In this document: positions 18,859 to 61,735 of the stretch, one piece after another
How positions within the stretch are numbered: position 1 is the stretch's first letter
Layout of the letters: each line of letters begins with the position of its first letter
Assembly: GCA_030062745.1 (NCBI GenBank)
Contig: CP099839.1
Coordinates: 30,413,904-30,477,903, forward strand
Source: Capitulum mitella
Lineage: Eukaryota; Arthropoda; Thecostraca; Pollicipedomorpha; Pollicipedidae
DNA length: 64,000 nt
Direction: 5' to 3'
Position numbers and translations under genes: made by a program
The notes under the pieces: model-generated
What the model saw: the letters and a program-made list of their open reading frames with translations, nothing else
Told to the model about the DNA's origin: nothing
The model's database searches: none

Positions 18859-19974
18859 AGAGTAACAAATGGTGTTAACGTATGAATTTCAGTTTTTACG
18901 ATTTTTGCGGAACGCAGCCTTATTATGATCGGTTGCCTGCTTTTGAAAATGTAATTCGACATATGAAATGGTTGTGAACATGTAGATGTGCATTTTTAAC
19001 GCCTGTAACGACATTATAGAATAACTTATGCCATGATTGCACGGGCTTTCGTCTTTTCCGTGTGTGTTATATGCACATTTCACTGGGTGTTCTTCTCGAT
19101 GACGTAGTTCGTAATGCATCTGTGTGAGAAGAAGATCTAGGATATCGTGTAGGATATCTCAGATCTCATAATAATAATAAAATATCGAATGTTCGAGTCG
19201 ACTCGGTAAATTTCTTTAATTATCACCCGCTTCGAGGTCATCTTGAAGCTACAAAAACTGCTTTCCTGTGACCATTGCTGCAAAACTATCAACATGTAAC
19301 GCTTCCAGCGTTTTTTTTGTCCTGGCTTAGCTTGCATAGGCAGTCTGTTTAGAAAATAAAATTATTTTCTGCTCTGATTCACATACTGAATGCTCACTAG
19401 CCAACCTTCAGCAGGCCATGGCCAAATTTTCCATTACGTGTTTTATTATCACATTCGTTACGTGTCACATGCCATTTTATCCAAAGCCACCGTGAAATGG
19501 CCATGGAATATGGAAAAATGTTGGGTTAGTAGCCGCCTATGGAAATTAAGCACGAGCAGCACCCGATTTGAGGTGCCCAGCGTCATAAAACAGTATGTCA
19601 CTTCTGTACTATTTGCGTGGGTCTGAGCTGTTACTGAAACGGTGCATGTAAATAAGGCCGACATCCTGCTTCTGTGTCGAGCAGCACGCTGCAAGGAATA
19701 CGGAAGGTTGGTGGTGGCTGGGTCCGCTGATTGTTGAGCTGGAGCCGACGAGCAAAAGCGTCGCAACCACATTATTATTGCTAATCTTACTGGCATTTTG
19801 TAGCGGTGCGAAGGTAAGATCATGGCGAAAAATGTTATTGGAAGGAAAAGAAAAATAGAGGAAAGCAGCATTCGCATGTTTATTATGTTATGATCCGACT
19901 GCGTTATAAAAAAAAAAACGTTTCTTTATCGCCACGACTGGGCGCAACAAAACTGAAACCAAGTTTAAACTTCT

Positions 19975-24639: not shown

Positions 24640-25720
24640 TCTGACCGGAGGCCGGACTGTTGAGCTCAGCTGTGGCTGGGGTTTCGTGGAGGTAGTCTGT
24701 TGATCCCAGCTGTGACGGCAGGATGGCCTGTTGACTTGTGCTCGAAGGCGGCTAGTCTATTGACCCCAGCTGTGACTGAAAACTGGTCTGTTGACCTCTG
24801 CTGATGACCCATGACATTAATGATTACGTTCCGGACCGGAGGAAGATAGGGTGGTCTGTTAGTCCCAGCTGTGACCGGGGGCTGGTCTGTTGACGTCTGC
24901 TGATGATCTATGACGCTAATGCTAACGCTATGACGAACTGAAGTTTATTTAGTTTATTTAGTTTATTTAGTTAACTAGTTTATTGGCCCCAGGTGTGACC
25001 TCAGGCTGCTCGGCTGACCTCCTCAGTGACCGGAGGAGGATGGAGGTGGTCTGTTGACCCCAGCTGTGGCCGGAGGCTGGTCTGTTGACCTCTACTGTGA
25101 CCGGAGGAGGATGGAGGTGGTCTGTTAACCCCAGCTGTGACCGTAAGCTAATATATTGACCCCAGGTGTGACTGGAGGCTGGTCTGTTTACCTCCTTAGT
25201 GATCGGAGGATGATGGTCCGTTATGGTCTTTTATGGTCTGTCTGAGGATGGAGAAAGCCTGTTAACCACAGCTGTGACCGGAGGCTAATCTGTTGACCCC
25301 AGGCGTGGCCGGAGGCTGGTCTGTTTACCTGCCCATTGACCGGAGGAGGTGGTCTGTTAACCTTAGATGTGACCGGAGGCTGGTCTGTTGACCTCTGCTG
25401 TGGCCGGAGGATGGAGGTGGTCTGTTAACCCCAGCTGTGACCAGAGGCTGGCCTGTTCACCTCTACTGTGATCGGAGGAGGATAGTGGTGGTCTGTTGAC
25501 CCCAGCTGTGACCGGAGGCTGGTCTGTTGACCTCTGCTGTGACCGGAGGAGGGTGGCGGTGCTCTGTTGACCCCAGCTGCAACTGGAGGCTAGTCTGTTA
25601 ACTCCAGGTGTGACCGGAGGCTGGTCTGTTCATCTCCTCAGTGACGGGAGGAGCATGAGATGATCTTTTGATCCCGGCTGTGACTGGCGATGTGACCGGG
25701 ACTGTGAGCGGGGCTGTGTC
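24640..25720 (+). repeat. Compound minisatellite, ~1.1 kb
   Basis: Many interleaved copies of CTGTTGACCCCAGCTGTGAC and CCGGAGGCTGGTCTGTTGAC, with variants such as ggaggaggatggaggtggtc. The basic step is about 31 bases, and higher-order units of about 70 appear where the two variants alternate. A short T-rich decamer repeat (tttatttagt, about 24942-24983) interrupts it. The array is upstream of the K2P gene. Confidence 0.85.
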
Positions 25721-28619: not shown

Positions 28620-28860
28620 GGGCCGGGCAGATGTGGGCCGGCCAGTGAAGCTGGCCGGTGCCCGCTGACCGGGTGGGCCGGCCAGTGAAGCTGGCTGGTA
28701 CCGGCTGACCGGGTGGGCCGGCCAATGAAGCTGGCTGGCACCGGCTGACCGGAATGGGTCCAGCCGGTGAAGCTGGTTGGTACCGGTTGACCGGAATGGG
28801 TCCGGCCAGTGAAACTGGCTGGTACTGGCTGACCGGAATGGGTCCGGCCGGCGACGTCCC
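28620..28860 (+). repeat. 40-42-bp minisatellite
   Basis: Six units of the form GGCCAGTGAAGCTGGCTGGT plus accggctgaccggg. The first spacings are 40 bases and the later ones 42 (28641, 28681, 28721, 28763, 28805, 28847). The two-base difference marks two sub-arrays with different unit length. Confidence 0.85.
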
Positions 28861-36600: not shown

Positions 36601-39600
36601 AAGGAATAGCTAGGAAAAGTGACCAGGTTTCGTGAAGCTGCATCAAAAACCCTGGAATTGGCATGCAAAAAACCCGAGGGGGCGGATTAAACCCCCTTGC
36701 CGTGAATAGGCTAAAGCGACAGAGGTTATAGCTGAATAATTTAAATCCTCTGGCCCATTTCTAAGCTATGAACCAACATAACACAGATGTCTCCCAAAAT
36801 CTAGTTTGGCCTACATATGGATATCATTAAAGACCAGAGGAGACGTTCTCGCTAGGCATTGATATCGTAATTCTTGTGAGACACCTATCGTGACAGTGAT
36901 CGTATCCATACGTTGCAAAAAAGACTGGATTTCGCAAGTCACTGAGATTTTAATGCGTACCAGGCCTCGGGCAAGTGACTCGTTCGCCTAGGAAATCCTT
37001 CGCACCAGAAAGTCTTAGTGTGTGCACTGACTTCTCTTAGCTGCCCATCATGTCCTGGAGTGTGTGACGAGCGCCTCCGGATTGCTCCCAGTTTGATTGT
37101 CGGCTTTCACACACATTTAACGGCATCCTGTGGAACCATCGCTCGGGCCAGCTTGCTGGTCGTGTGACGGCCCTTTGACGGTGGCGAGTCGTGTGGCGGC
37201 CCTTTGACGGTGGCTGGTCGTATAAGGGCCCTGTGGCGGTGGCCAGTCGTGTGGCGACGGCCAGGCATGTGACGGTGATTAGACCTGTGACGGCGGCCGG
37301 TCATGCGACTGTGGCGGGTTGTGTGACAGCGCCCGATCATGTGACGGTGGCCAGTCGTGTGACGGCGATGTGACGGTGGCCGATCATGTGACGCCCGCCG
37401 GGTCGTGTGATGGTGGCCTGTCTTGTGACGCCCGCCGGCCGCGTGATGATCCTGTGACGGCGTCTGCTCGTGCGACGGTCTAGTGGCGATTGCCGACCAT
37501 GTGGCGGTTGCCGGTCATGTGACGGTGCCCTGTCGTGTGATGGTGGACGGTCATGTGACCGTGGACGGTCGTGTGATGGCGGACGGTCGTGTGATGGTGG
37601 ACGGTCATGTGACGGCGCCTGGTCATGCGACGGTGGACGGTCGTGTGGTGGTGGACGGTCGTGTGATGGTGGACGGTCGTGTGATGGTGGGCGGTCATGT
37701 GACGGCGCCTGGTCATGTGACGGTGGACGGTCGTGTGACGGTGGACGGTCGTGTGATGGTGGACACGGTCGTGTGATGGTGGACGATCGTGTCATGGTGG
37801 ACGGTCATGTGACGGTGCCCGGTCATGTGACGGTGGACGGTCGTGTGATGGTGGACGGTCGGTGCCGCAGGTGTTCCAGGACATTGAGCTGCCGCGGGAA
37901 CGGGCCGAGTTTGACCGGGTGTACGGCCAGGTGATGGCGCACCGCCACCGGCTGGTCGGAACCATCGTCAACAGCTCGGAGTTGGCCGGCTCTGAAACGC
38001 AGCTCCGGTAAGGAACAGAGGGGAGACGGAGAGTTTCCGTCTTTGTGTCATTTGTTCTTTCATTTGGTTTTTAACCTAGGTCTCTCCAAAACTTCTAACA
38101 TTAATGACAAACTCGAATTTTGTTCCGAGCTTTAGAATATTTCATTTGAAAGGGTATGCGGTCGAAGCCTACCACAAATCCTGTCCTACCACCGGGCCGT
38201 CATGCTCAGACAAAAGACTGTACCGGACTTTCGTGCTGTTCAGACACGGGACTGTATCTGGCTGTCGTGCCGTTCAGACGCAGGGTTATATCGGGCTGTA
38301 GTGCTGTTCAGACACAGGGTTGTACCGGTCTGTCGTGCTATTCAGACGCGGTTGCACAGGACTGTCGTGCTGTTCAGACACGGGACTCCTCGTGGCCGTC
38401 ACGTTACGGCTCAGTTGGCGGGTGCCTGTGGTTTTACGGCGGACAGCTCTGGCACACGTGCCTCATTCTAACCCGGTCCCTGAGTGGGGTCCGCTGCTCC
38501 CCTCCCCTGATTGGCTGCCCACTGGCTAGCGCCGGCTTTACGACGGCGTTAGGGGCCACTGGAGACCACTGGGGGCCGGCTGACCCAGCTCGAGCGTGAG
38601 CAGTCGCTCGTGTGTCGAACGGAGCTGACCCACAGGGCGTAGCACAGTGATGAGAGGTGGTATGGCGGACCGGCCGGCCGACAGGTGAAGCCCACCGACG
38701 GCTGCGGCGACGGACTCTTTGGGTTTGTCGCCGCGACCCGCAGAGTCCTCTAAAGCTGGGACTGGCGTTATTGGAACTGGCAGTACACATGGGACTTAAA
38801 AAATCCAAGTCAGCTCTTTTGTTAAGATTCTCACAACAGCTCGCTGATATGTGACATTATGCGTATTTACCCACTATATACGGGGGGTATTTAACGCCCC
38901 CTCCCCGGCACATTTCTTAGGTATCTCCCAAACGAATAGACCCAGCGTCTTCCAACTTTCAGCAAAAAGTGAAAAAAGTTGGAAATGAGGTCATCCTAGG
39001 TCACGCCTTGATGACGTCTTAAAGACAGTCTTGTTTTACGATTCGACATTCACTTTTACTTCACCACCGGTGATTTTACGATGCATGATGACTGTGGTTT
39101 GCCTTGCATACCAGCATAACCTGAGAGCTTAACCCTATTCCCGGAGGGCTAGACGGTATCGTCGATTCCCAGCAGAGGGGGCGGATTCGCCCCCCCCCCC
39201 CGAGATCTCAAGAACTACTCGTCCGATTTCATCGCAAAAACGGCAACCGATTTGCCGTGACGTGAACTGCATTTTTATAAGAAGAAATTCTCAAAATTTT
39301 GAAATGTGTGGACACGGGGGGCAAAAGTGTCAAAATGGGGGGTACTTTTGGACTTCTTATAACTTCGTTGTTTATCGACCGACTTCGATGAAACTGGCAT
39401 GAATCGAGAGGTTATGGATAGGGCTACCATGGGTCCACAAATCTGAAATTTTGAGAAAATTCATGGGTGTTCACAAGGTTTCAAAAATAGGAGGATTAGT
39501 TTTCTAACAGCTGAATGAACAAAAGAGGCAAAAACATTTGTTTTGGCTTCTGCTAGTCATGGTATGCTAAAAAAGTACGAATCGCATGACATTGTTTGTA

Positions 39601-45600: not shown

Positions 45601-48600
45601 GCTTACCCTGCATCGTACCCCGCCACGTTTGAGATACGTAAAGTCGTACGAGTCGCGCGTACTAATATGAGCAGTTTGCCAAACAATTAGCCACAGCACT
45701 AGCTGTGAACGTAAGTCCTTCGATTCAAAAGTGTGTGGCTCATTCATGAGTTTAGCATTTAAAGTTTTTCTGGTATATTTCAGAACCTTTCCGTGCGTTC
45801 CTGACATTGCCTTAGAGCCATTGTTTACCTGACCGGGCAACTAATCACAATTACATTTTACATTAGGTTAAAGGGCAATTTGTTGGTCGTAAGCTAAACT
45901 TGTTTCCCAGTTAAAACTGTTCAAAAGCAGCAATGCGGAAGACCACCTTAACTCCAGCATCTCCTCATGATCGGCTTCCAAAGGCTGCAACATCCGCTGC
46001 ATATGGTCAGCGTCAGAAGACTCTAATCCGAGGCCCGCCACGAAGCCTAGTAGGTTATTTCCACTCGTAGCCGTGGCTCTTTTAATTGTAATAAACAGCG
46101 AGTTCATTAAGTATATACTGATGTCGGGAATGATGGTAATGCAGTATCTAATTTAGTGCCCACTATGACACCTTTTGGGACGCGTGACAAGCGCGGCCTG
46201 ACACCAAGCCCTAATATCCTCAAGTTTGGGAGTATATTTTCAAGTCCAGTTTGGCAGGCGGTTTTCTTTGATACAGTTTGCAGTACAGACGGATAATTAT
46301 CAACATATATCAGCATTTTTCCCTCGAGATATTTCAAGATTAAACATTACCCGCGCCCGTAGTACTGTTCGCCGTCATTCACTCTCGTTCTGCTAGTGAT
46401 TCTTTTTGGCATGAATTCGAAGGACGAAGGCGATAGTTACTAGATTTCAAGGTATTTTATATTGCATGACATCATACAGCTCCCACTGATTTAGAGCAGT
46501 CGAAAAATACCTGTAGGAAAAGGCATCAGACCGAAAACATCATTCCAGAAATAAGTATTTGAGTGGCAAAGGATGTAAGGAAACACAGTGCGAATATAAA
46601 TGTACACAGTTCAAGGGATTGGGGTGTCTTGTGACAAGAATATTACGGCTACATGTCCAGGGGCTGTGAATTTATTAACTTGCGGAAGCGTTAAAGCCAA
46701 GCCGGGCTGGCAGCTCTAGTTGATTTTTTCCCCTGCCAGATGAAGTAAGACTTCCTCGCTTTTCTGCCCCGCTTGTAATGAAACGTATTTTGACGTGTGC
46801 GGTTGAATATGTGTACCACAATTGGATTTTTCTGTCACAGATTTCATCTTTACTTGGCGTCTCTTTGAACGACAATATGACAGCCGTTATATCACTTCGA
46901 ATCCTGATCTAGAAGGCGATATGTCTCTCGGACTGTCGATTTGACGGGCGTTGCGTCGTCTCCCCGGTCGCTGGCCTGGCGGAGCCGCCTCGCTGTGGCG
47001 TCCGCGGACGACGCACGCCGGACCTTCGGCTGGGCGTGGCCTGACCTCAGTGACCTCTCAGGTGCGGCCCTCAAATGGGCTGCGGCACGCCGCCGGCGCG
47101 CGACGCGCGCTGGCTCGCGTGCCGCGAGACATTGGTGGGTTTTACACCTGAGCGCGGCCGATGACGACGAGGTAACGGCCCGCCCAGCGGGGCTGCCGTG
47201 CTGGCGGCGTCGTGCCGGGCTCTCGCGAGCCATCATCCCGCCGGCTGTGGCCGGCTGGCGGCGTCGGGCCGGCGCGGCCGATGGCCAGCAGTGCCGTGCG
47301 GTCCGCGCCGTCCGCGCCGCGGCCGGCCCGGCCACAGGCGGCGTCCGGTTAGTGCGACGGCCGCCTGTGAGCCTTGTCCCGTCCCATTGATCCAGAGCCG
47401 CTGGTGCGGAGCGCGCCTTCGCGCGGACAATCTCCATTCGGCGTTTCTCGGGCGCCGTTTGGTCGACAGTTATGCTCGGGCCGGGTATTTCCGCCGTGCT
47501 CCTGGCTGATGACGGCGGGCGGCAGCCGCGGCTGGCCGCGAGCGGTCGGCTCCGGCCGGCGGTGGCCGCCGCACGGCTCGGCGCCCGCTCCAGCGCACTA
47601 TTTGCACCGATCAGCCGGCTGATCGGCAGTCGGCGGCGGTCCCGCGCGGCGTCAGCAGCCGCCCGGCAGCCATTCAGTTAAGACTAGTGTACACGAGCGG
47701 TTTTGTCTGCTGCGGTGGCAGGGCGACCGCACTCTGCAACAGCTGGCGGTGGTCGTCACGTGTTTGCTTACGTTATACGTACGTCCTACTTCAGCATGGC
47801 TATGGCTCTACCTGTGTCGCAGCCTCGAAGGTGTTGCGGTATTTTTGGATTCGAACCAGGAACGTTTTGATTCGGAGTCCAGCACGGCGGGCACTGCGCT
47901 GTCGAGGAGATCAATGGAACGTGTGGGCGGATCTGTCGCTGGAAAAGCCTCCTGCCACCAACATTCCTGATCGGCTAATATGTATGGTCGCTGATCGCTA
48001 ATGACCAATGATAAAGTTTGAATAGGCCATGAAACATCAACAGTCGGTGAGCCGCGGCAGTCGTCAAGCAGGCAGGGCCGTTCGAACCGCGCATAGGCGC
48101 GTCAGAGCCGCACCTAGGCGCGTCAGAACCGCGCATAGGCGCGTCAGAGCCGCACCTAGGCGCGTCAGAACCGCACCTAGGCGCGTCAGAACCGCGCATA
48201 GGCGCGTCAGAACCGCACCTAGGCGCGTCAGAGCCGCACCTAGGCGCGCGTGGCCGCGCGTTTTTGCCGCTCGTGAAAATGGGGCTTGAGGTTCGCGGCC
48301 AGTCCATGCTCCAGTTTAGGCGCAGGAGGCTACAGCTGAAGATTGGGGGGAAGCAGGGGGGAGGGAAGGAGGGTTCTGCAGCTGTGGGCCGGCCCGGCCT
48401 GGTTGGACGAAGTCAATACGCTTAGTGCATTCTCTTGCTCGTGCTTTTCGAGAAACACTTTTATGGTAACCCGGAGCTCAGTGCCTAGGAAAATGAGTAG
48501 CAATGCTGGGATATTTTTTGAAGCCGTAATAATGGGGACTCTTCGGGCAGTTGAATGATCGGCATATCGTTTTTTTCCACTAGCTGAGTAGTGCACAGAT

Positions 48601-50783
48601 AGGTATATTTTATGTGCATGATTATCGTTTAATTCATGAACTGTCTTGTGTCTTGAAGCGTTGCCAGTAAATGACAGCACCTGCGTCAAACAAACATGGT
48701 AGTACTGTGATCTAAGTAGCAAAATCTAAATTTAAGTAGCAAAACAGGATAACTTTGTATATCGGCCAGGTCTGTCTAGTCTTAACAAAGAGGCACGTTG
48801 GTTTGAAATGCGATGCCAAGGTTGCGTTGCCAACAACTCACGGAATGCATCGTTTATGTTGCCTACGTCACTGGTTCTAAACAGTTTACGGTGTTTCCAT
48901 CACATCCTGTTTTTCTCACGTGTCTTTATCCTGTTCTAGGCTGGATTTGTGACAAATAAGGCTGTTGATGTTTGGGTTGAATCTCTCACTGGCTCAAGCG
49001 TAGTTGGGATCGCAGTGTGTTATGACATTGAAATGAAGCTTTATTTATCATGGATACATGATGTAACCACAGACGGGGGCCGGGGGACTGTCTCCTCCAA
49101 TTTTGGCAATTTTGGGTTCTGTCCCCCTGTTCAATTCTGGTCGGAAAACTAGCGTTTTTCGCAATTTTGCATTGAAAAAGAGGATTTTGTGTGAGATTGC
49201 CCCCCGCCCGGATCCTGATTTGTGCGCCCTCAGTTTCTGGGACGTGGCTACACCCAATTGTGGATGCAATGTTGTCTTGAATTCTGTCGGGGCGAAAGCA
49301 GTATTGCTGTGGATCATTACTTAGCAATCTCTTCCTTGTTATGGAGAAATTATTATTTCGTTTGCCACCGTATGAACAACAAAAACCAAACATCGCTTTT
49401 ACATTGGTTTTGAATTTTCTCACGATGTGTTCCGGTGATATTTGAATTATTGTGTCATTAGCTTTTAAATCATGTTTATTCATCTTCATATACGAGCCAT
49501 GGTTCGTAATATGGCGTTCTTCTATACTACAATGCAAAAATCATTTCAAGCACTTAGCATTCGAAGGCGAATTACTGTAAATGAAAGGATGGCAAGGACC
49601 CAAAGTACATGATTCAGACGACACCAACGTTGTCATTTAAGCAGTACTGGCTGACAAATAGCACGGAGCGTCTTGTTTAGGACACGACTTAGCCTCTTCT
49701 GTTAAATGCCCGTCACGTGATCTAGCCGACACCGGCGCGGTGATCTCAAGACGGAGCGTTTCCTGCGACGGTACCTGTCTGTCACGAGGCCTGCACGACA
49801 GTGAACTCCTGCAGGATAGTCTGACCATTACTCCCGGCCACGTGACCTTTCCGACGTGGATTTCTGCAGGATGGTGTGACGTTAATTGTCTGTTACGTGA
49901 CCTGTTCGGCAGTGGACTCCTACAGGATAGTGTGACGTTAACTGTCTGTTACGTGGCCTGTTCGGCAGCGGACTCCTGCAGGATAGTGTGACGTTAACTG
50001 TCTGTTATGTGACCTATTCGGCAGTAGATTCCTGCAGGATAGTGCGACTTTAGCTGTCTGTTACGTGACCTGTTCGGCAGTGGACTCCCGCAGGATAGTG
50101 TGACGTTAACTGTCTGTTACGTGACCTGTTCGGCAGCGGACTCCTGCAGGATAGTGTGACGTTAACTGTCTGTTACGTGACCTGTTCGGCAGCGGACTCC
50201 TGCAGGATAGTGTGACGTTAACTGTCTGTTACGTGACCTGTTCGGCAGTAGACTCCTGGAGGATAGTGTGATGTTAACTGTCTATTACGTGACCTGCCCG
50301 GCAGTGGACTCCTGCAGGATAGTGTGATGTTAACTGTCTGTTACGTGACCTGTTCGGCAGTGGACTCCTGCAGGATAGTGTGACGTTAAATGTCCGTCAC
50401 GTGACCTGCCCGGCAGTGGACTCCTGCAGGATAGTGTGACGTTAAATGTCTGTTACGTGACCTGCCCGGCAGTGGACTCCTGCAGGATAGTGTGACGTTA
50501 ACTGTCTGTTACGTGACCTGTTCGGCAGTGGACTCCTGCAGGATAGTGTGACGTTAACTGTCTGTCACGTGACCTGCCCGGCAGCGGACTCCTGCAGGAT
50601 AGTGTGACGTTAAATGTCCGTCACGTGACCTGCCCGGCAGCGGACTCCTGCAGGAGTACGAAGCCGAGCTGCTCAGCGCCGTCAAGTCGGGTATTGACCT
50701 CACTCCCGGACAAACCAACTACAAATATAAATGGAACTACATACATTCCCTGTTCTTCTCGTCCACCGTACTGACCACCATCG
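33525..50783 (+). CDS. Two-pore-domain (K2P/TWK-like) potassium channel, 5' three coding exons, partial
   Basis: Three exons (33525-33680, 37871-38007, 50641-50783) join in frame to give about 146 residues before the gene runs out of the window. Seen: a basic cytosolic N-terminus, TM1 beginning at SHLGLILVLVVYTAGG (residues 35-50) and ending in VFQDIE (53-58), a charged extracellular cap with an NSS sequon at Asn86, then W129 and a pore helix ending SLFFSSTVLTTIG (134-146). Known of the family: K2P subunits have TM1-cap-P1-TM2-TM3-P2-TM4 and dimerise to make background K+ channels in the plasma membrane; the TM1 and TTIGYG signatures fit. Splice phases are 0, 2 and 1, with donors gtaacg, gtaagg and gtgagt. 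Intron 3 splits the first Gly codon of GYG, which as I recall is a conserved K2P intron position. There is no cysteine in these exons, so the apical cap disulfide of TWIK/TREK-like channels is absent. TM2 to TM4 and P2 must lie beyond 64000. The subfamily is inferred only. Confidence 0.88.
33681..35788. other. Intron 1, proximal part
   Basis: No exon-like island. A 192-codon + frame (34492-35070) is Cys- and Arg-rich and unrecognised; I treat it as chance. Confidence 0.5.
35789..36714 (+). mobile_element. TTAA-type element copy with internal deletion (intron 1)
   Basis: It opens ctttattcccgggtggctag and continues gtatggccgattcccggcc, as in the full copies, and ends ccgtgaataggctaa. It is about 0.93 kb. 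The interior jumps from aaacttaataaacaagtga to gaatttctagattttgtcac, omitting roughly 290 bp present in the other copies. Both edges are mutated. Confidence 0.7.
37150..37866 (+). repeat. 18-bp minisatellite ending at the exon 2 splice acceptor
   Basis: Units of the form GGTCGTGTGATGGTGGAC or GGTCATGTGACGGTGGAC. Units are diverged at the 5' end (37150-37480) and nearly uniform from 37530 onward. The array stops within about five bases of gccgcag|GTGTTC. Because 18 is divisible by three, both strands show long open frames here (for example His-Asp-Arg-Pro repeats on the minus strand). These are repeat artefacts, not genes. Confidence 0.92.
37871..38007 (+). CDS. K2P channel exon 2 (end of TM1 and first cap helix)
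   Basis: 137 bases, opening in phase 0 after gccgcag and ending CTCCG|gtaagg in phase 2. It encodes VFQDIELPRERAEFDRVYGQ and onward through the first extracellular cap helix, with a potential N-glycosylation site (Asn86-Ser-Ser). F-x-x-IE directly after TM1 is the K2P signature. The acceptor is preceded by an 18-bp minisatellite rather than a pyrimidine tract, and a 34-bp tandem repeat begins about 190 bases downstream, so this exon sits between two arrays. Confidence 0.87.
38200..38395 (+). repeat. 34-bp tandem repeat just downstream of exon 2
   Basis: Six imperfect units built around GTCGTGCTGTTCAGACACGG. The ttcagac core recurs at 38239, 38273, 38307, 38341 and 38373, giving spacings of 34, 34, 34 and 32. 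It lies in intron 2 about 190 bases after the donor. Confidence 0.85.
40783..41070 (+). pseudogene. hAT transposase N-terminal BED zinc finger, broken
   Basis: A 77-codon frame begins MSHQGVFTPPLEVENL, has an acidic linker, then WPYPETYFEFKEEGKNVIF and VLCRP, the hydrophobic/aromatic spacing of a BED finger. The finger's distal His pair appears as MAHIKRKH but only in a different frame, just past the TAA that ends this frame. The position expected to hold the first zinc Cys is Tyr58, with Cys61 retained. The copy therefore carries a frameshift and a lost zinc ligand. Its place inside a hAT element supports the assignment. Confidence 0.6.
41700..42545. mobile_element. Probable TTAA-type element nested inside the hAT copy
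   Basis: The right edge ends agggaatagggttaa, matching the family terminus. The left part, from about 41715, has a C-rich stretch followed by agatctcgagattcattcgtcc, which parallels agatctcgagaactacacat near the start of the main family. The left TTAA edge is not identifiable. The interior is diverged or of another subfamily. Confidence 0.4.
42557..42790 (+). mobile_element. Left end of a further TTAA-type element inside the hAT copy
   Basis: TTAACCCGTCTCCGGCCGGG begins 12 bases after the TTAA that closes another element end (agggaatagggttaa, 42531-42545). The new end opens with a perfect 12-bp hairpin, 42566-42577 pairing with 42592-42603, loop 14 bases, and runs into AGGTCA-containing sequence. 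No matching right end is seen, so it is probably truncated. It resembles the left end at 11563. Confidence 0.4.
44971..46929. other. Intron 2, featureless stretch
   Basis: Short frames only; no recognised repeat. Confidence 0.5.
46930..47680. other. CpG-rich island in intron 2, no gene recognised
   Basis: About 750 bases of strongly GC-rich, CpG-rich DNA with overlapping open frames on both strands (181 codons minus, 149 codons plus). The conceptual peptides are Arg/Ala/Pro-rich and unlike any family I know. It could be an alternative promoter, an eroded minisatellite or an unrecognised exon. Confidence 0.4.
47836..47903 (-). pseudogene. tRNA-like sequence (degenerate tRNA or tRNA-derived repeat)
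   Basis: On the minus strand a box A-like gcgcagtg is followed by ctggactCCGaatca, resembling an anticodon arm, and by ggttcgaatcc, an exact box B. The spacing fits a tRNA. The T-stem 3' side (CCAAA) and the acceptor stem do not pair, so this is not a functional tRNA. Could be chance apart from box B. Confidence 0.35.
48085..48250 (+). repeat. 21-bp minisatellite
   Basis: Eight units of GCGCGTCAGAACCGCACCTA with cgcata/cacctagg variants alternating. Seven-codon periodicity gives open frames on both strands, which are artefacts. It lies in intron 2. Confidence 0.9.
48251..49739. other. Intron 2, mostly featureless
   Basis: A 183-codon minus frame (48986-49537) is unrecognised. Near 49070-49240 a G/C-tract pair (gggggccgggggactg, attgccccccgcccgg) resembles transposon subterminal sequence. 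Confidence 0.4.
49740..50653 (+). repeat. 56-bp minisatellite ending in the exon 3 splice acceptor
   Basis: About 16 tandem units. From 49925 to 50653 the period is exactly 56 over 13 consecutive steps; the first two or three units (49740-49925) are diverged and of slightly different length. Each unit contains tgacctg-ccggcag followed by CGGACTCCTGCAG, identical or nearly so to the real acceptor plus the first 13 bases of exon 3. The last unit becomes the exon. Units also carry TTACGTGACC or TCACGTGACC. Confidence 0.93.
50641..50783 (+). CDS. K2P channel exon 3 (second cap helix, P1 pore helix, TTIG filter)
   Basis: 143 bases. The acceptor is cccggcag|CGGACTCC: starting at 50641 completes the split Arg codon (CG|C) left by exon 2 and reads GLLQEYEAELLSAVKSG, then W129 and the pore helix SLFFSSTVLTTIG. 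The more obvious acceptor 13 bases later (ctgcag|GAGTAC, 50654) would break the frame with exon 2. The donor is ATCG|gtgagt, phase 1, inside the first Gly of the filter. The first 13 bases of this exon, CGGACTCCTGCAG, are present in every unit of the 56-bp tandem array immediately upstream. Confidence 0.88.
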
Positions 50784-51229
50784 GTGAGTCCCTTCTGTTA
50801 TCCACTTTTGTCTATTTTAAGGATGCATATATTGGTTTTATGTGACTTAAAGGCGCCTTGATGTTACGTCTTTTGAAGGATCGGTATCGTGGATGTGGTG
50901 TATTGTGAAGTATAGTGCAGCACATTCATCGTACTGTAAAACAGCATTAAGAAAGGGCGGTGGCTGAAATCCTACCTCTCTCCCGTACCATGTTTGCGCT
51001 TTTTTGCCCTGATGCACTGTCATTTAAACTTTCAGTAGTTATCTACGCGGAATGCTTTTTGCGTGAGCGCTGCCTCTGGCAGAGACGTTACCCGATACGA
51101 CACGGGCCGCAGATTTAGCTCTGCCGAACTGGTGCCTGCCGCCTCGCTAATGTGCCGGCTCACCCTCGCCGGCATGGCATCGGGCTGGGGAAAACATCTA
51201 ATATATGTCTGTTTTGACCGCTAAGCTAC

Positions 51230-61149: not shown

Positions 61150-61735
61150 CGCGGCGCCTTGCGCCGGCGCTGCTCCGTCGGCGTCTGAGAGGAGCACCCT
61201 GAGACCGCCTCTGGGACCGCCGCGAGGCTGGAGGGGACGGTGGTCGTCGGCGTCTGAGAGGAGCACCCTGGGACCGCCTCTGGGACCGCCGGGAGGCTGG
61301 AGGGGACGGTGGTCGTCGGCGTCTGAGAGGAGCACCCTGGGACCGCCTCTGGGACCGCCGCGAGCCTGGAGGGGACGGTGGTCGTCGGCGTCTGAGAGGA
61401 GCACCCTGGGACCGCCTCTGGGACCGCCGCGAGGCTGGAGGGGACGGTGGTCGTCGGCGTCTGAGAGGAGCACCCTGGGACCGCCTCTGGGACCGCCGTG
61501 AGGCCGGAGCGGACGGTGGTCGTCGGCGTCTGAGAGGAGCACCCTGAGACCGCCTCTGGGACCGCCGGGAGGCTGGAGGGACGGTGGTCGTCGGCGTCCG
61601 AGAGGAGCACCCTGGGACCGCCTCTGGGACCGCCGCGAGGCTGGAGGGGACGGTGGTCGTCGGCGTCTGAGAGGAGCACCCTGAGACCGCCTCTGCGACT
61701 GCCGGGAGGCCGGAGGGGACGGTGGTCGGGCCGCA
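61150..61735. repeat. 69-bp minisatellite in intron 3
   Basis: The gagaggagcaccctg core recurs every 69 bases (61187, 61256, 61325, 61394 and on), about eight units. Because 69 is 23 codons, several minus-strand frames stay open, the longest 331 codons (61079-62074), and the peptide changes frame in mid-array after a one-base indel near 61580. That is expected for a noncoding GC-rich array and argues against a real protein. Confidence 0.9.

Follow-up and report, generated by a model that had tools for sequence, protein, structure and literature searches.

The stretch of the Capitulum mitella genome analysed here (64,000 nt of contig CP099839.1, positions 30,413,904 to 30,477,903; hereafter the window) carries a splice acceptor repeated many times in tandem, which raises the question of which gene harbours the array, which acceptor copy keeps the reading frame open and how the array came about. 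The array spans the intron 2/exon 3 junction on the forward strand (49767-50655) and was delimited by TRF and unit alignment, with a period of 56, 15.9 copies, 89% matches, 0% indels and a score of 1330, the highest TRF score in the window. Comparison with the consensus and inspection of the individual acceptors delimited 14 near-identical, in-register units (49870-50653, forward strand), each containing a CGGCAG acceptor and 13 exon-start bases. The unit reads, with few variants, CGGCAG followed by (C/T)GGACTCCTGCAG, with the intron/exon boundary at 50640/50641, and the rightmost part of the array extends 13 nt into exon 3. The CGGCAG acceptor was invariant (14/14 units), and 13 of the 14 units possessed, upstream of it, a GTTAA that resembles a branch-point motif. 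An earlier note on this DNA had described a unit made of the intron end and the first 13 bases of exon 3, kept in 56-base register through 13 steps into the exon, with at least 13 near-identical acceptors; TRF and the unit alignment bear out both composition and register, and the count comes to 14, 13 of them preceding the one presumably in use.

Each unit differed from the consensus at 0-6 positions, and 13 distinct sequences were found among the 14. The inner units showed 0-5 differences, and the exon-proximal unit (50598-50653, forward strand) was the most divergent, with 6; five of these six recur in unit 50374, at a distance of four units, a pattern suggestive of exchange within the array. 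Two further, decayed units lie to the left of the 14, one of them (unit 49814) off register by one base. The left edge (49764-49813) aligned to the unit with a score of 60, whereas none of 200 letter shuffles scored above 28, and a chance origin of the array was rejected on this value and on the TRF score. A dispersed repeat was also rejected, as a 252-bp array query matched the species' own 477-Mb assembly at the array only (5 overlapping places), by a method that passes over simple repeats and highly frequent words and in which an absent match is no proof.

Judging from the domain and structure matches of its translation, the gene carrying the array is a two-pore (K2P, KCNK) potassium channel, with the exons recognised inside the window on the forward strand. 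A probable first coding exon (19652-19813), recognised from its sequence and from matches of the joined exons, is an open frame with TM1, devoid of an in-frame ATG, that ends in LLLLILLAFCSGAK before gtaag (phase 0). Exon 2 (37871-38007) encodes the sequence following TM1 and extracellular cap, with the donor CG before gtaagg (phase 2); it was located by motif search, having been missed by a hydropathy scan for upstream exons, and is backed by a homologous exon in the C8 paralog, while on its own it yielded no Pfam match. Exon 3 (50641-50783), identified by Pfam, PDB and frame, encodes K2P extracellular cap and the first pore helix and ends in ACCATCG before gtgagt (phase 1). Exon 4, recognised from the joined translation, lies beyond the window (74667-75038 in window coordinates). 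Exon 3 alone matched Pfam Ion_trans_2 with an E-value of 4.4e-4 (20.5 bits, slightly below the curated 22.5), and all 36 PDB sequences matched by exons 2 and 3 at E<=10 were K2P channels (best E 0.0026). With exons 1-4 joined, the best PDB match was a KCNK3 chain over residues 96-237 (E 4.8e-29), TREK chains matched over residues 4-237 (E about 1e-25 to 1e-24), and Ion_trans_2 matched in two stretches (E 5.6e-32). The joined translation is open through both filters, TTIGYG (exons 3-4) and TTIGFG (exon 4), and so has, in a single chain, the pair of pore domains with filters of the GYG/GFG type that characterises K2P channels.

Each of the 53 [CT]AG sites in 49601-50660 was joined to exon 2 (phase 2). 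An in-frame, stop-free product was obtained from 50641, in the last unit, only, and the other 52/53 sites reached a stop. We infer from these reading frames, and from the acceptor position in the C8 paralog, that the last acceptor (AG ending at 50640, exon start 50641) is the copy in use. The earlier statement that splicing must use the last acceptor thus stands as far as this is the sole productive one among the 53 sites, but "must" is too strong for a choice deduced from frames alone. The pyrimidine count was identical at all 14 acceptors (10 of 16). Nothing intrinsic therefore singles out the last one, upstream copies may be used as well, and a preference for the last would have to come from context, for example exon definition.

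The C8 paralog, the closest one in the genome, was 84% identical to the focal gene over an exon-4 stretch, 69% in exon 3 and 58% in exon 2. Its acceptor, ggctcgggcag before GAGCCTACTGCAGGAGTATG, lies at the homologous place, with codon and phase equal to those of 50641, and it encodes SLLQ where focal exon 3 encodes GLLQ. At this exon 3 acceptor the paralog has no 56-bp array, only a 24-bp repeat in 1.9 copies; the focal array therefore arose, or that of the paralog was lost, after the genes parted, and the absence of an array from the paralog may be secondary. The exon-4 acceptor of the paralog lies about 40 nt from an array of 5.2 copies of 59 bp.

Acceptor duplication was surveyed in 61 exons, comprising 41 potassium-channel exons (50 loci, 9 of which were dropped as the same exon found twice) and 20 exons of kinases (the first 20 among 138 matches starting at profile position >=10, ending at <=253 and free of stops). 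Acceptors were chosen by a simple score, which misplaced that of L048 by 9 nt, and the 32 nt around each predicted acceptor were sought, independently of TRF, within about 280 nt upstream. The acceptor recurred upstream at 27-32 of 32 matches in 7/61 exons (6/60 without the focal exon), whereas in 717 control comparisons with introns of other loci the highest score was 25 of 32, with the 99th percentile at 20. At all six other loci the unit contained the acceptor and the exon start, with 9.7 copies of 56 bp at L062 (92%; the unit covers the bases coding for the GYG filter), 3.5 copies of 71 bp at L040, 2.9 copies of 57 bp at L045, 2.7 copies of 60 bp at the kinase exon L073, several overlapping arrays at L074, and two copies uncalled by TRF at the kinase exon L075. 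The L062 array (998-1536; C10 near 23261 kb) lies at the pore exon of a further K2P-like gene; its 56-bp unit is unrelated in sequence to the focal unit, and the equal period may be a coincidence. L073 and L075 are paralogous kinase exons, presumably GSK3-like, identical at 222/234 nt, each with its acceptor duplicated about 60 nt upstream. Their duplications may represent one event, which would leave five events besides the focal one; because both units contain exon sequence, their comparison would fit a shared as well as a separate origin. Local tandem duplication has probably acted at other acceptors in the C. mitella genome too.

In this sample, arrays were more frequent next to acceptors than next to donors. 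In the 41 potassium-channel loci, with the focal exon left out (TRF period >=10, score >=50), arrays covered 12-18% of the 400 nt before acceptors, and coverage further out fell to 9% (400-700 nt) and then to about 2% (700-1300 nt). After donors it was 0-4% over the first 700 nt, with 8% and 5% in the last two bins, which reach 1300 nt. An array lay <=100 nt away from 10/41 acceptors and 1/41 donors (Fisher p = 0.007), or from 8/39 and 1/39 when focal exons 2 and 3 were left out (p = 0.029). For comparison, a position picked at random in the 164-kb focal region is preceded by an array within 100 nt with a probability of 0.075, which the 9/40 acceptors exceed (p = 0.002). Three of the ten array-bearing acceptors (L029, L033 and L050) had two-copy repeats only; restricted to arrays of >=2.5 copies, the counts were 7/41 acceptors and 1/41 donors (Fisher p = 0.057), or 5/39 and 1/39 without focal exons 2 and 3 (p = 0.20). 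In the automated duplication test, acceptors exceeded donors by 7/61 to 0/61 (p = 0.013), or 6/60 to 0/60 without the focal exon (p = 0.027), no donor reaching >=24 of 32 (best 23, at L081). The donor test missed an array seen by eye at L060, so donors were undercounted. That array (1619-1741; C9 near 21255 kb) comprises 4.1 copies of a 29-bp unit with CACGCTCGTGCTGCAG directly followed by GTACGTGG, on the donor side of a potassium-channel exon.

A duplication bias toward acceptors over donors is suggested, rather than established, by this sample of two protein families from one genome, with heuristic acceptors and a post-hoc starting point. It may well be, though it is slightly less likely than not, that acceptors act as minisatellite seeds throughout the genome of this lineage, with about one exon in ten carrying a tandem acceptor copy and intron 3' ends exceeding 5' ends as hot spots.

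Other repeats occur along the focal gene. An 18-bp array (37500-37861, forward strand; TRF) ends 9 nt upstream of exon 2 and makes up most of an AG-free stretch of 387 nt (37481-37868) before the exon 2 acceptor, the longest in the window, where the second-longest AG-free run is 170 nt. The array before exon 3, in contrast, is rich in AG. Between the exons of the gene TRF also reported minisatellites with no adjoining exon recognised, with periods of 71 bp (24983-25630), 42 bp (28634-28849), 34 bp (38219-38381, starting about 210 nt past the exon 2 donor), 21 bp (48084-48248) and 69 bp (61176-61728).

The most probable account, which we favour with good though not full confidence, is that the focal array is a "mirage" minisatellite, a kind described in amphioxus, grown by tandem duplication in place with the acceptor as its anchor, the exon-proximal copy being in use and the rest silent or unproductive. 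A 56-bp stretch comprising the branch-like motif and acceptor of the intron 3' end plus the first 13 nt of exon 3 would have been duplicated locally in tandem, and unequal exchange or conversion would have made the units partly uniform. What would keep the exon-proximal copy in use is exon definition from the donor at 50784, favouring whichever acceptor lies closest, together with the stop to which every other copy leads, leaving the upstream copies as silent intron or as a source of degraded transcripts. The right end of the array would be pinned by selection on exon 3, while the left end decays.

An alternative that we consider unlikely is an acceptor ladder with a function, in which splicing to upstream acceptors at some rate yields extended, stop-containing exons, so that the length of the array would set the level of channel expression by way of unproductive transcripts. 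The intact AG and equal pyrimidine count of the 14 acceptors would suit such a role, as would the stops reached from the 52 other sites of the 53, and at the six other loci all 19/19 upstream acceptor copies were likewise frameshifted or stopped, two of the 19 with a frameshift and no stop within the stretch examined. Random intronic extensions, however, are assumed to be often unproductive as well, the C8 paralog has no such array, and amphioxus RT-PCR suggests regular splicing (PMC3087553).

Far less probable is a cluster of transcription-factor sites, in which the unit core ACGTGACC would form an intronic enhancer array. The palindrome CACGTG, present in 3/14 units, is missing from the other 11, and an E-box array was rejected as the main reading on this count; the units of the other acceptor arrays, compared by eye, are also unrelated in sequence. 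It is scarcely credible that the array only abuts an exon 3 that begins at 50654 or behind an unrecognised exon: TGCAG followed by GAGTAC resembles an acceptor at that position, but joining it to exon 2 shifts the frame and leads to a stop, and the paralogous acceptor lies at the place of 50641, with SLLQ opposite GLLQ. This start, which had been named as a finding that would overturn the earlier reading, was therefore rejected, 50641 being backed by frame, donor phase and paralog. Tandem arrays are error-prone in assembly and the copy number of 14 may be wrong, but a false expansion is hardly believable as the source of the array, since no observation of the analysis supports it, the 14 units comprise 13 distinct sequences and independent arrays occur at other exons.

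Mirage arrays have so far been on record for few amphioxus genes, and the same architecture now recurs in a small sample of exons from an unrelated arthropod genome. Such recurrence would make it testable why intron 3' ends duplicate in tandem, how the spliceosome settles on a single acceptor among a dozen equal ones, and if acceptor arrays contribute to the growth or gain of introns. Wherever an exon has an acceptor array, its gene model and the number of copies may be wrong.

Among known systems, genes in human segmental duplications also possess minisatellites at exon-intron boundaries, which can alter splicing; these repeats lengthen exons or form novel introns (PMC2812944), whereas at the focal exon the ordinary junction alone keeps the frame open. 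The human polyubiquitin gene UBC similarly has splice sites repeated within a tandem-repeat gene, AGGT dual-specific sites that act as donor and acceptor (PMC10809524); unlike these, the focal acceptor is followed by TGG, CGG or TAG, with no AGGT. The closest match is with the amphioxus mirages, tandem repeats across an intron-exon boundary that PMC3087553 describes for Adh3, BflGb6 and BflGb9, and PMC3902484 for troponin C and PGBD5. The earlier note's belief that no minisatellite made of a splice acceptor and exon start had been described was therefore mistaken; no arthropod mirage report was found among the matches listed from the open-licence literature. In BflGb6 the duplicated unit consists of the intron 3' end and the 5' part of the exon, and BflGb9 is a donor-side case (both from PMC3087553). 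By its sequence the focal array is a minisatellite of the mirage kind, with the same structure: its unit spans the boundary (50640/50641), its 56 bp fall within the 10-160 bp given for amphioxus units in PMC3087553, and its inner units are homogenised (0-5 differences) with divergent edge units (6 differences at the exon; unit 49814 decayed), as in amphioxus, where inner units are homogenised and boundary units excluded (same source). Splicing is suggested to be undisturbed in amphioxus (PMC3087553 and PMC3902484), there from RT-PCR (PMC3087553), whereas the focal array is known from DNA. It also differs in copy number, with 14 near-identical copies where the two BflGb6 haplotypes have 6 and 3 (PMC3087553), and in its arthropod host, in which recurrence was counted across a sample of exons; this recurrence is the new element beyond the known mirage cases.
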